Shown piece after piece: positions 32,827-39,199 of a stretch of DNA of 64,000 nucleotides. Location: contig MCFE01000087.1 of assembly GCA_002104905.1 (NCBI GenBank), positions 113,290-177,289 on the forward strand, read 5' to 3'. The stretch's first letter is position 1, and each line of letters begins with the position of its first letter. Position numbers and translations under genes: made by a program. The DNA is from Basidiobolus meristosporus CBS 931.73 (lineage: Eukaryota; Basidiobolomycota; Basidiobolomycetes; Basidiobolales; Basidiobolaceae). The notes under the pieces were generated by a model that did not search any database, was not told the origin of the DNA, and saw only the letters and a program-made list of their open reading frames with translations.

Positions 32827-35074
32827 ATGTATACTCATTTGAACGCTTCGAAGCGTGGCATCCCACGCTCTTGTCAAGGCAGGGTTTCTTCTCAGCAGCT
32901 GCGACGCCTGCCACATGTCTCGTTAAATCGACTTCGCTCAAGTCGACTTGGCGTTGGCCTTCGAAGCATATCTACAACGATAGAGAACACCTCGTGTCGA
33001 AGCTTGTCCACACTACCAGGCGTTCTGGACATTTCGGAGAAAGTGGATTTCTGGAAGGAAATTATGCAATTAGAGCGTCAAGCGGCTGGCGATGCCAAAG
33101 AGCTCGTCGAAGTGGTCAAAGAGAAGCGGGAGAAGGGCGGCCTGGGGAAACTGCTGGCCTTGTCTAGCCCAGACCTTCCGAAATTATTCGGTAGGTGAAA
33201 GCAGTCTACTATGCCCTCGATAAGTTGATGTGGTTTTGCAAACACGCTTTCCTAACACGCTTATCTTACCTTTACAGCCGGTGTACTCTGTATGTGCACT
33301 TCCTCAGCAATCACACTGGTAAGCGTTCGCTTGACGCACCCCCTCCCTTCACGGCCAAGTCACTAAACACCTATCAACAGTCTGTGCCCTACCTTATAGG
33401 CCGTATCATTGACGTGGTCACGAAAAAAGCCTCGGCCCCTCTTGGCATGACACCAAACCAATTTTTCACTGCGCTGGCCGGGGTTTTCGTACTCGGCGGG
33501 CTCGCTAACTTTGGACGCGTGGTAACTTTGAAGCTAGCTAACGAAAAAATCACAGCACGTCTTCGAACCAGCCTCTACCGTAGCATTATGGGTCAGGAGA
33601 TCGCGTTCTTTGACGCCACACGTAGCTCCGACTTGGTCAGTCGGTTGACACTAGATACCACCGTGGCAGCTAAGACAGTAACCAGCAACGTGTCTGATGG
33701 ATTGAGGGCCTTGGCTTCGGCCTTTGTGGGCTTTGGTATGATGTCCTATATTTCACCGAAGCTTTCCTTGACCATGATGGGATTCGTCCCTCCGTTCGCC
33801 GTCGGTGCAGCCATGTACGGCAGACGGGTTAAGAAGCTTTCCCGCTCCACCCAGGATGCATTGAGCGATATCAACGTGACGGCGGAGGAACGCATCAGCA
33901 ACATCCGTACCGTTCGCGCCTTCACCAAAGAGAAGGCGGAAGTCGAGCTTTACGAAAACCAAGTCAACGGGATCCTGACGCTGGCCAAAAAGGAGGCCTA
34001 CGCCAGTGGAATCTTTTACGGGGTCGCCGGAATGTCTGGGAACCTCACGGTCTTGGCGGTGCTCTCGATGGGGGGAACCATGGTGCTGAACAACGAGATC
34101 ACCATCGGCGCACTGTCTTCTTTCCTCATATACACCGCGCACGCGGGTTATTCCATGATGGGACTGGCCTCTTTCTTTGCTGAAACCATGAAAGGTTTAA
34201 GTGCGTGCACCAGGCTCTTCCAGTTGCTGGAGCGTAGACCAGAGGACCTGGTCAATGGGCAACAAACCATCCCCAACCTCCAAGGAAAGATCGAGTTCGA
34301 CAATGTTGACTTCGCCTATCCCACTCGACCAGACAATCAAGTGTTCAAGCAACTTAATTTCTCCCTCGAGGCCCACTCGGTGCTGGCCGTTGCCGGTGCC
34401 TCTGGCGCTGGTAAGACAACCATCGCCTCACTTTTGCTACGCTTCTACGACCCCGAGAACGGGTCAGTCAAGATCGACGGAGTGGATCTGAAGGAGTTGG
34501 AGCTTCACTGGTGGCACAATCAAATCTCCATCGTCAGTCAAGAGCCGGTTCTGTTTGCCAGCACCATCCGCGAAAACATCCGCTACGGCAAGCCAGACGC
34601 GCAGGATTGCGAGATCGAGGAGGCCGCCAAAATCGCCAACTGCGGGTTTATCGAGGAGTTCCCAGATGGCTTAGACACCTACGTCGGAGAGCGTGGGGTT
34701 GCATTAAGTGGCGGACAAAAGCAAAGGTAATTGGATCGCAGGGCCATACCAAGCCATCAACTAACCGATCGTATCCCTTCGATAGAATCGCCATCGCCAG
34801 AGCACTCCTGTGTAATCCCGCTATCTTGGTCTTGGACGAAGCTACCAGCGCTTTGGACAGCGAGAACGAAAAGCTGGTTCAGGAGGCACTTGATCGGCTC
34901 ACCCGTAATCGTACAGTGATCACCATCGCCCATCGCCTCTCCACACTTAAGAATTCCGATGTCGTGATTTGTCTCGAGCATGGACAGATAGCCGAGATGG
35001 GCACTTACGAACAGTTGGTTGCCCATGAGGGTCCCTTCAAGAAATTGATTGAAGGCCAAATATTGGAAGTGTAA
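32827..35074 (+). CDS. Mitochondrial ABC half-transporter, Mdl1/ABCB10 type
   Basis: A half-size exporter of the mitochondrial inner membrane; the yeast relative Mdl1 exports peptides from the matrix. Exons 32827-33190, 33278-33318, 33381-34726 and 34786-35074 give 679 residues. The first about 70 residues are Arg/Ser-rich with few acids, fitting a mitochondrial presequence. The membrane domain follows, starting [26 protein letters not shown]. The nucleotide-binding domain has Walker A (GASGAGKTT), Q loop (VSQEPVLFA), signature LSGGQKQR, Walker B ([12 protein letters not shown]) and the H-loop His in TIAHRLST. The third intron splits the signature-adjacent codon RIAIAR. All catalytic residues are present. 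Exon 2 is only 41 nt. Confidence 0.93.
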
Positions 35075-36086: not shown

Positions 36087-36094
36087 TATAAATA
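36087..36094 (+). promoter_or_regulatory. TATA box of globin gene
   Basis: TATAAATA lies 59 nt upstream of the ATG at 36146, a consensus match at a plausible distance. Confidence 0.6.
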
Positions 36095-36145
36095 GGAATG
36101 TGTCTAGGCTCCTCAACATTACTCGAAAATCGATCTACAATTAAC

Positions 36146-37249
36146 ATGTCTGCCGTTGAAAAGACCCTGTACGAGACCCTGGGTGGGGAAGAGACCATTT
36201 CCAAAGTGGTCGATGTGTTCTACAGCAAGTACGTCCTGAACGACGAAAGAATCAAGCATTTCTTCGTCGGCGTCGACATGGAGAAGCAGCGCGTCATGCA
36301 ATCCAAGTTCCTGTCATTCGCCTTCGGTGGCCCCGCCTTCAATGGAAAAAAGATGAACATCGCGCATCGCCATCTCAAGCTCACCGACGATCATTTCGAT
36401 GCGGTCATGGATGATCTCGGTAAGGCCCTACGCGACTTCGATGTTCCCGAGGAAATTATCGCCAAGGTGGCTGCAGTTGCGGAGACCACACGCAACGATG
36501 TCCTTGGTCGTTCCGAGAAAAACCCCGCTCCGAAGGAAATCCAAATGGACCACGTGGACCGCACCCTGCTCCATACCGATCCGGTTTATCGCTACAAGTA
36601 TGTTGCCAAGTTTGTTGATTTTTCCGACAAGGATGTCGAGGCTATCAAATCGGTGTCCGAGCAACTGGCTCCTCTCGGTGCAGTCCTGGTGGACGCGGTT
36701 TACGACAAACTCAGAGCCTTTGATATCACCTGGGAATCCATGGCCAAGCGCCACGAAGGGTATGCCGGGGAGGTGGTAGAGAACGTGCGCGATCTCAAGG
36801 TCGATAGCTCCCAGATTAAGTACCGAAAGGATATGCTGACCCGCTACATCGGCCGTCTTCTAACCAACCCGTACGACGAGAGAATGATCAAATACCTTGA
36901 CTGGGTCGCTAAGATCCATACCGACATCCCAGGAAAGAAGTCCAAAATCAACGTTGAGTACATCCATATCTCTGCGCTTCTTGGCTTCGTAGAAACCACC
37001 CTGATATGGGCGGTTAGCACTCTGAAGCTCGAGAGGGAGCACGAGCTTCAAGTGATTCTGGCCTTCAACAAGGTTCTTTGGCTTCAGAATGATTTCTTTG
37101 CTAAATACTACGCCAAAGATGGCTCCGACGTACCTGCATCCTTTGGTCTGCACGCACATCCAGCACCAGCGCCCAAATTTAACCTCAACAGCGCATTGGT
37201 CGGTGGGCTTGTAGCTGTTCTTGGATTATTGCTTGCTCAAAGATTCTGA
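36146..37249 (+). CDS. Two-globin fusion: group I truncated haemoglobin + protoglobin, tail-anchored
   Basis: A 367-residue intronless frame. Residues 7-120 are a group I truncated haemoglobin: LYETLGGEETISKVV, the B-helix FY pair (25-26), FFVGVDMEKQR, FAFGGPAFNGKKM, and a candidate proximal His at 74 in MNIAHRHL. Residues 150-325 resemble the protoglobin/sensor-globin family: FVDFSDKDVEAIKS, IKYRKDMLTRYIGRLL, YLDWVAKIHTD with candidate proximal His 258, YIHISALLGFVE and NKVLWLQNDFFAKYY. A Pro/Ala/His linker leads to a 17-residue hydrophobic segment (348-364, ALVGGLVAVLGLLLAQ) ending RF, a tail-anchor layout with both globins cytosolic. Two haems per chain would be expected. Likely roles are NO/O2 chemistry or redox sensing at a membrane; this is inference. 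There is no reductase domain, unlike fungal flavohaemoglobin. Lack of introns contrasts with most neighbours. Confidence 0.88.
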   Translation: MSAVEKTLYETLGGEETISKVVDVFYSKYVLNDERIKHFFVGVDMEKQRVMQSKFLSFAFGGPAFNGKKMNIAHRHLKLTDDHFDAVMDDLGKALRDFDVPEEIIAKVAAVAETTRNDVLGRSEKNPAPKEIQMDHVDRTLLHTDPVYRYKYVAKFVDFSDKDVEAIKSVSEQLAPLGAVLVDAVYDKLRAFDITWESMAKRHEGYAGEVVENVRDLKVDSSQIKYRKDMLTRYIGRLLTNPYDERMIKYLDWVAKIHTDIPGKKSKINVEYIHISALLGFVETTLIWAVSTLKLEREHELQVILAFNKVLWLQNDFFAKYYAKDGSDVPASFGLHAHPAPAPKFNLNSALVGGLVAVLGLLLAQRF

Positions 37250-37698: not shown

Positions 37699-39199
37699 AT
37701 GCTTGGACTTGCCGTACGCCTGATACCAGCCAACTCCAGATTACTTTTGAAGAAGCAAACACCTGCGGTGTTTGGTTCGGTATTTACACGTCAGGTAAGA
37801 CTACTGGGCGATTCCTTGGAACCCTCTCCTATCGACTAAACCCGCAACACCGTTAGAATTCCAACCGAACCGCAATCAGCCAAGCCCTTCGCAAGAAGGT
37901 TCCTTTTCCAGGCGCTTCAGATTCCTACTTCACCCAAGAGATGACCTTCATTGGCAAGACCGAGGCGATACCCACTTACCACGTCATGGATTCAGAGGGC
38001 AACATACTAGACCCCTCGCAGGAGCCTGAGGTTAGCGGCGATTTGAGCATATTGTATCCTGTGTATTCTCAACCATCGAAATCTAGGTTTCACCCGAGTT
38101 TGCGATAAAGATCTATGAGGATATGATCACTTTGAATATCATGGACTTGATTCTTTACGAAGCCCAGCGTCAGGGACGCATCAGCTTCTACATGACAAGC
38201 TATGGTGAAGAGGCGTACATAGGAAGCGCTGCGGGCCTCTCCAGCGAGGATATCGTCTTTGGACAGGTGAGCAACAGCCATCGAGGTCGTTAGTGAAGAA
38301 GTCATTACCAACTCTGTTGATTTTAGTATCGTGAAAGCGGGGTTCTGCTTTACCGCGGCTTCACTATGGACGAATTCATGAATCAATGCTATAGTAACGA
38401 GCTTGATTATGGCAAGGGTCGCCAGATGCCCGTCCACTACGGCTCCACCAAGCACAACTTCCACACCATATCCTCCCCTCTAGGCACTCAAATCCCCCAT
38501 GCCGCAGGCGCCGCATACACCCTGAAAATGGAGGGGAAGAAGAATTGCGTGATGTGCTACTTTGGCGATGGTGCGGCCAGCGAGGGAGACTTCCATGCTG
38601 CCTTGAACATGGCGGCAACCATGAAGTGTCCCGTGATATTCTTTTGCCGGAACAATGGGTTCGCTATCTCCACACCTACCTCCGATCAATATCGTGGAGA
38701 TGGTATTGCCAGTCGAGGAATCGGCTACGGAATAGACACGATACGTGTGGATGGTAACGATGTGTGGGCGGTATATAATGCAACCAAGGAGGCCAGAAGA
38801 CTCGCAACCGAAGAACATCGACCCGTCTTGATTGAGGCCATGACTTACCGAATTGGCCACCACAGTACTTCAGACGACTCCTCCGCCTACCGGTCGAAGA
38901 AGGAGGTTGAGGATTGGGAACGCACAGACAACCCGTTGGTCCGCATGCGCAAATACCTTGAAAACAAGGGATGGTGGAACGGAGAGAAGGAAAAGTCCTT
39001 CCGCAGTGACATTCGTATCAAACTGCTCAAGTCGTTCACCAACGCAGAAAAAGCCAAGAAACCCGCTGTGAAGGAGATGTTCGAAGATGTGTACGACCAG
39101 CTCACACCCAACCTGATCGAGCAGAAGGCTGAATTGGAGGGGATTCTAAAGAAGTACCCCGAATACTACCCATCTATCAAGAACCATGCCCAGAACTGA
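37699..39199 (+). CDS. BCKDHA: Branched-chain 2-oxoacid dehydrogenase E1 alpha subunit
   Basis: The thiamine-diphosphate E1 alpha subunit of the mitochondrial complex that oxidatively decarboxylates the keto acids of Leu, Ile and Val. Exons 37699-37794, 37857-38030, 38087-38266 and 38327-39199 give 440 residues, the family length. A basic presequence ([19 protein letters not shown]) comes first. [45 protein letters not shown] and [12 protein letters not shown] follow. Next come the ThDP motif [15 protein letters not shown] with [12 protein letters not shown], and the phosphorylation-loop sequence [17 protein letters not shown]. The last is nearly identical to animal BCKDHA, so this is not pyruvate dehydrogenase. 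S. cerevisiae lacks this complex. The E1 beta gene is not in the window. Confidence 0.96.

Follow-up and report, generated by a model that had tools for sequence, protein, structure and literature searches.

A two-globin gene in Basidiobolus meristosporus

The window analyzed here is a 64,000-nucleotide stretch of the genome of the gut-dwelling fungus Basidiobolus meristosporus CBS 931.73. On its plus strand, 367 codons are open from 36146 to 37249 and closed by a TGA stop, and they encode two globins of different lineages followed by a hydrophobic C-terminal segment. The features of the locus, in window coordinates, are as follows.

36087..36094, plus strand: TATA-like box TATAAATA 5' of the gene, read from the sequence
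36146..37249, plus strand: truncated haemoglobin-protoglobin-tail gene, intronless, 367 residues; an open frame with five other full-length relatives
36164..36511, plus strand: group 1 truncated haemoglobin domain (residues 7 to 122), from a PF01152 match over residues 7 to 117 and matches to cyanoglobin chains (E 3.5e-26)
36365..36367, plus strand: H74 codon (candidate proximal His in the truncated domain), invariant in the 27 rows of alignment A4
36512..36589, plus strand: linker (residues 123 to 148), lying between the domains and less conserved
36590..37123, plus strand: protoglobin domain (residues 149 to 326), from a PF11563 match of 127.3 bits
36917..36919, plus strand: H258 codon (candidate proximal His in the protoglobin), invariant in the 64 rows of alignment A3
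37184..37246, plus strand: hydrophobic C-terminal segment (residues 347 to 363), then AQRF (364 to 367), from hydropathy and seen in 7 of 7 Basidiobolus rows

An alternative in-frame ATG at 36098 lies 3 nt past the TATA-like box and has no counterpart in the second fusion copy of this genome (contig C891; see below). Because it adjoins the box and is not kept in that copy, 36146 is the likelier translation start. The TATA-box stretch recurs in solo protoglobin genes and, partly, in the second fusion. The neighboring genes, an ABC transporter split over two frames (33195-35074) and a dehydrogenase E1 component (38366-39199), have no bearing on the function of the fusion.

In the protein database, the product of the window is split into two entries, P0108 (residues 1 to 122, 36146-36511) and P0007 (residues 134 to 367, 36545-37246). 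The gap between them is 33 nt long, which is below a workable intron size, and contains zero stop codons. The annotated gene structure here may need to be revised.

Domains, haem sites, and C-terminal tail

Both halves of the protein scored far over the Pfam cut-offs, with 60.3 bits against a cut-off of 21 for PF01152 (residues 7 to 117; E 2.6e-16) and 127.3 bits against a cut-off of 25 for PF11563 (residues 149 to 326; E 6.7e-37). The two matches do not overlap, and the sole further Pfam match (E up to 1) fell far under its own cut-off; an NCBIfam scan of the fusion protein gave zero matches. A sequence-only reading of this DNA had placed two globins of different lineages in one intronless 367-residue frame, with proximal histidines at 74 and 258 and a 17-residue hydrophobic segment at the C terminus, and the profile matches of both halves, the invariance of the two candidate histidines, and the hydropathy of the tail all bear this out.

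The best solved-structure matches of the truncated half were cyanoglobin, over the full domain, and chains named group 1 truncated hemoglobin. Window residues Y26, Q48, M51, and Q52 align with Tyr, Gln, His, and Gln of cyanoglobin, which we take to be distal haem-pocket residues. Since M51 replaces the distal His of cyanoglobin, an open ligand site would be expected in the truncated half. One fusion of Basidiobolus ranarum, P0006, departs at the distal positions, with IIL against VMQ in the window. For the protoglobin half, the A3 profile gave weak matches to solved structures, namely, the 2w31 globin chain (E 0.012) and HemAT (E 0.4).

Within the tail, hydrophobicity peaks over residues 347 to 363, a 17-residue stretch with a mean Kyte-Doolittle value of 2.19 that stops 4 residues short of the end of the chain. 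By its sequence, the C terminus of the fusion is tail-anchor-like. Membrane segments outside the C-terminal tail were checked through Pfam only. Anchors of the outer mitochondrial membrane are typically short and moderately hydrophobic and have basic ends.

The fusion is conserved in two Basidiobolus species

A second fusion in the same genome, L009 on contig C891, encodes the 365-residue P0003 (K493DRAFT_312201), and B. ranarum has four (P0002, P0004, P0005, and P0006), making six fusion genes in two species. The five other full-length fusions keep the entire domain order at 77 to 84% identity, and five homologues are entered in the protein database as single proteins of 365 to 371 residues. 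Between the window and C891 copies, the truncated half showed a dN of 0.075 and a dS of 1.97, the latter near saturation, for a dN/dS of 0.038. In the linker, protoglobin, and tail, dS was saturated and no value was computable; the linker region (residues 121 to 147) has 65% identical residues between the two copies. The shared domain order of the five full-length relatives, together with the low dN/dS of the truncated half, argues that the fusion is more than chance. These comparisons confirm the fusion gene as real and evidently maintained by purifying selection.

A search with the whole protein matched 106 proteins among 6,803 candidates. A search with the truncated half matched 6 among 172 candidates of fusion-like length (five Basidiobolus fusions and P0051 of Gallionella) and 46 among 56 candidates of single-domain length. 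In these protein searches, which considered only proteins with 5-residue words in common with the query and could therefore miss distant cases, no fusion turned up outside Basidiobolus. Outside Basidiobolus, P0051 alone carried tags of both Pfam families in the whole-protein and fusion-length searches; we rejected it as a fusion, as it is a tandem of two truncated globins whose protoglobin tag overlaps the first one. P0140 was rejected as well, being a 122-residue truncated globin with an overlapping protoglobin tag, and P0142 bears the same kind of tag.

A 2012 census (PMC3287990) divides globins into the F, S, and T families and describes S globins as known widely in fungi and their role there as unknown. 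Among the papers listed in searches of the open-access literature, none dealt with a fusion of T and S globins, in keeping with the earlier reading, which knew of no described protein with this architecture; those listed on Basidiobolus and haemoglobin were medical by their titles. That reading proves partly supported overall. The domain order is confined to Basidiobolus in our searches, but it is no one-off, recurring in six genes of two species. Where that reading named flavohaemoglobins and single-domain forms as the known fungal globins, the census already has widespread S globins and, in Allomyces and Batrachochytrium, group 1 truncated globins. The novelty lies in the T-S join and not in its parts.

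The tail is common in early-diverging fungal protoglobins

We surveyed C-terminal tails in 105 rows, comprising the 106 whole-protein matches plus P0001, minus P0007 (the window itself) and P0051. The criterion was a hydrophobic 17-residue stretch near the end; we chose the threshold ourselves and grouped the rows by their genus names. By this measure, the tail is present in 7/7 Basidiobolus rows, 36/37 protoglobins of Mucorales and Umbelopsis, 3/3 other eukaryotes, 0/3 named bacteria, 0/26 Mortierellaceae, and 9/29 remaining rows. The counts across early-diverging fungal protoglobins indicate an anchor that either predates the fusion or also occurs widely apart from it. As judged from these sequences, many protoglobins of early-diverging fungi carry the putative tail anchor, which therefore did not arise together with the fusion, and the 36 tailed proteins of Mucorales and Umbelopsis rule it out as an innovation of the fusion.

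Three further observations concern protein ends and neighboring domains. Among the protoglobins of Mortierellaceae, of which P0009 is one, many finish with a brief run of aromatic and basic residues, for example, FFSRLWSLFF. P0138 is a truncated globin with a hydrophobic N-terminal segment and the FYxxYVLxD motif of the fusion, and it is perhaps another membrane-anchored truncated globin. In P0069 (Irineochytrium), the protoglobin is annotated behind an asparaginase-like domain (PF01112), possibly through a merged gene model.

Solo protoglobins resemble fusion genes without the truncated domain

The B. meristosporus genome holds at least 12 PF11563 matches, two of them in the fusions. The other 10 are six intact solo copies (L011 to L016) and four broken ones, of which L017 and L018 have internal stops and no frame from the starts searched, and L019 and L020 diverge after "KDMLT." Among the intact copies, L014 to L016 lie a few kilobases apart on contig C801, as do L012 and L013 on C564, and L011 is on C223. 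Minus-strand matches include L011, L012, L013, and L017 and, from the truncated globins described below, L003 and L008.

Four of the intact solo genes, L013 to L016, share with the window copy the 100 nt 5' of the start (scores of 18.5 to 23.5 against shuffled maxima of 8.0 to 11.5) and the first 51 coding nucleotides (13 to 18 against 6.5 to 8.5). In the protein alignment, they lack residues 16 to 112 and resume at the end of the truncated domain. In a quick protoglobin tree without bootstrap, the seven Basidiobolus rows form one clade (SH-aLRT 100), and within the fusion clade, the solo protein P0008 pairs with the window copy (SH-aLRT 98). Between the window and solo L014, dN/dS was 0.084 for the protoglobin and 0.074 for the tail.

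The shared upstream region and first codons, combined with the missing residues 16 to 112, suggest that the fusion came first and that L013 to L016 then lost the truncated core. On this sequence evidence, the solo protoglobins look like fusion genes minus the truncated domain. The converse, with solo protoglobins as ancestors of the fusion, is disfavored by the nesting of P0008 in the fusion clade and by the fusion-type start of four of the six intact solo genes. Counting against the fusion-first order, the linker DNA alone aligned no better than shuffles (scores of 3 to 7, with shuffled means of 2.9 to 3.5 and maxima of 10 to 14), and no fusion-type start was found for solo L011 or L012.

Origin of the truncated half

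At least 15 PF01152 matches were found in the B. meristosporus genome, two of them in the fusions. This leaves at least 13 single-domain group 1 truncated globins (L003 to L008 and L021 to L027), a large set for a fungus. These 13 are 39 to 47% identical to the truncated half of the fusion, several have long N-terminal extensions, and all lie on contigs lacking a protoglobin match. In a tree of 125 columns with long branches, which excluded P0138 and used 43 of the 44 other matches of the single-domain-length search, all 20 Basidiobolus rows fall on one side of a branch against the 43 database matches (100/99), and the 13 solo rows group together (99/92). The best tree does not unite the fusion rows, made up of the six fusions plus P0109, in a single clade, and constraining them together was not rejected (p-AU 0.083). 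In an earlier tree that included P0138 and used cruder trimming, P0138 adjoins the fusion rows on a very long branch.

The nearest prokaryotic relatives among the matches listed are 47 to 57% identical. Most belong to beta- and gammaproteobacteria, such as Gallionella, Ferrovum, and Methylobacter, and a few other phyla are represented as well. Because 2 to 5% of Basidiobolus gene models have been called bacterial transfers (PMC7466969), transfer of the truncated half from bacteria is plausible, although the sampling here cannot show it. A term search of the main text of that study (Tabima et al. 2020) gave no "globin" or "heme." A bacterial origin of the whole fusion is unsupported, given that no protoglobin was found at any of 80 bacterial truncated-globin loci. 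There, the A3 protoglobin profile gave zero matches at 80/80 loci and scored both positive controls; these loci are the best 80 of at least 458 confirmed stretches, and many end early at contig ends. Nine frames among these best 80 loci (L102, L104, L041, L058, L039, L047, L085, L060, and L082), with lengths of 267 to 439 residues and truncated-globin scores of 226 to 337 bits, suggest that some bacterial chains may carry two or three truncated globins.

Proposed function

The globin complement of the genome sets the frame for any proposal of function. Exon-by-exon searches, which could miss an intron-rich flavohaemoglobin, gave 0 matches to the F-family globin PF00042. All 15 matches to the flavohaemoglobin model NF009805 begin at model position 152 or later, which is its reductase part, and five of the matching frames resemble, by eye, cytochrome b5 reductases. 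The same type of search gave no match for NO synthase or copper nitrite reductase. With no detectable flavohaemoglobin beside the at least 15 truncated-globin and at least 12 protoglobin matches, the genome suggests that this lineage may have assembled its globins from families other than those employed by most fungi.

Our first choice, held tentatively and with somewhat less than even confidence, is that the fusion protein is a tail-anchored two-haem globin acting as an NO dioxygenase whose reduction is left to a separate reductase. In an ancestor shared by B. meristosporus and B. ranarum, a group 1 truncated haemoglobin would have been joined N-terminally to a fungal protoglobin already bearing a C-terminal anchor. 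The protein would most likely be inserted posttranslationally through its C-terminal segment into a cytosol-facing membrane, either the mitochondrial outer membrane or the ER, leaving both haems in the cytosol. There, it would most likely destroy NO, with ferrous-oxy haem and NO yielding nitrate, and the haem would be re-reduced by a separate NADH-dependent reductase, such as cytochrome b5 reductase with or without cytochrome b5, as for cytoglobin. Together with other globins, the fusion would stand in for the undetected flavohaemoglobin. Haem binding, the membrane and the side faced, the NO chemistry, and the reductase are all steps that we infer.

NO dioxygenation comes first because it is described as within reach of any globin, with repeated turnover requiring a reductase (PMC3287990), because cytoglobin in cells draws on cytochrome b5 and its reductase (PMC7948950), and because the usual fungal enzyme is apparently missing. 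Support also comes from the presence of both domains, the invariant H74 and H258, the recurrence of the fusion under purifying selection, the retained Y26, Q48, and Q52 with loss of the distal His, and the b5-reductase-like frames. Several points weigh against it. The genome searches found neither an NO synthase nor a copper nitrite reductase as an internal NO source, P0006 departs at the distal positions, and the 13 single-domain truncated globins could do the NO work instead. The solo copies persist under constraint, which suggests that the pairing is dispensable for the role of the protoglobin in them.

A less probable alternative is a membrane-bound gas or redox sensor, in which the protoglobin shifts shape on binding O2 or NO and signals via a partner and the truncated globin tunes the local gas. 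Consistent with this, the protoglobin half is an S-family globin related to bacterial sensor globins, its profile touches 2w31 and the HemAT aerotaxis transducer, and the solo copies retain the anchor and protoglobin without the truncated half; yet both structure matches are weak, and the chain has neither a fused output domain nor a known partner. We consider other membrane haem chemistry about equally unlikely as sensing. This could be nitrite reduction, peroxynitrite isomerization, a peroxidase reaction, the supply of O2 to mitochondria, or the buffering of haem. A Methanosarcina protoglobin is reported to have nitrite-reductase and peroxynitrite-isomerization activity (PMC4020757), but nothing here singles out any of these activities, nor is there a copper nitrite reductase match that would place the fusion in denitrification.

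Two separate products, a 122-residue truncated globin and a 234-residue protoglobin with the fusion merely an open frame, would accord with entries P0108 and P0007, the solo protoglobin genes, and an annotated 111-residue truncated globin of B. ranarum (P0109), but are highly improbable given that no stop codon separates the pieces, that five homologues are entered as single proteins, that the upstream region and opening codons of the fusion survive in four solo genes, and that P0008 is nested in the fusion clade.

Returning to the NO dioxygenase proposal, its most far-reaching form is that a membrane-anchored two-haem enzyme replaced flavohaemoglobin in Basidiobolus, with the T and S haems working as one unit and passing ligand or electrons between them at an organelle surface. 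We regard this as doubtful; if true, it would be the first described globin coupling the T and S families in one chain. A T-S join that occurs naturally, is conserved, and comes with a putative membrane anchor offers a handle on the role of fungal S globins, and natural variants without the T half in the same genome make the value of the pairing testable by paralogue comparison.

Comparison with known globin systems

Flavohaemoglobin shares only the proposed chemistry with the fusion protein, which by Pfam has no F-family globin and no FAD/NAD reductase domain. The group 1 truncated haemoglobins (cyanoglobin, HbN, and Chlamydomonas THB1) share with fusion residues 7 to 122 the PF01152 domain, the proximal His, and the distal Tyr/Gln; the fusion adds a protoglobin and an anchor and has M51 in place of the distal His of cyanoglobin. 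The group 1 T globins described in Allomyces and Batrachochytrium (PMC3287990) are likewise truncated globins of early-diverging fungi; the Allomyces one lies inside a 1,129-residue protein with other domains, and the Batrachochytrium one stands alone. The tandem truncated haemoglobins of proteobacteria, such as P0051, also have two globin domains per chain, but unlike in the fusion, both are truncated globins, with no protoglobin and no tail. The single-domain S globins of Mucorales, Umbelopsis, and Mortierellaceae lack the truncated domain, and those of Mortierellaceae also lack the hydrophobic tail (26/26). They nevertheless align along their length to fusion residues 134 to 330, with 43 to 56% identity in most fungal rows of A3, and most of those from Mucorales and Umbelopsis carry the same kind of tail as the fusion.
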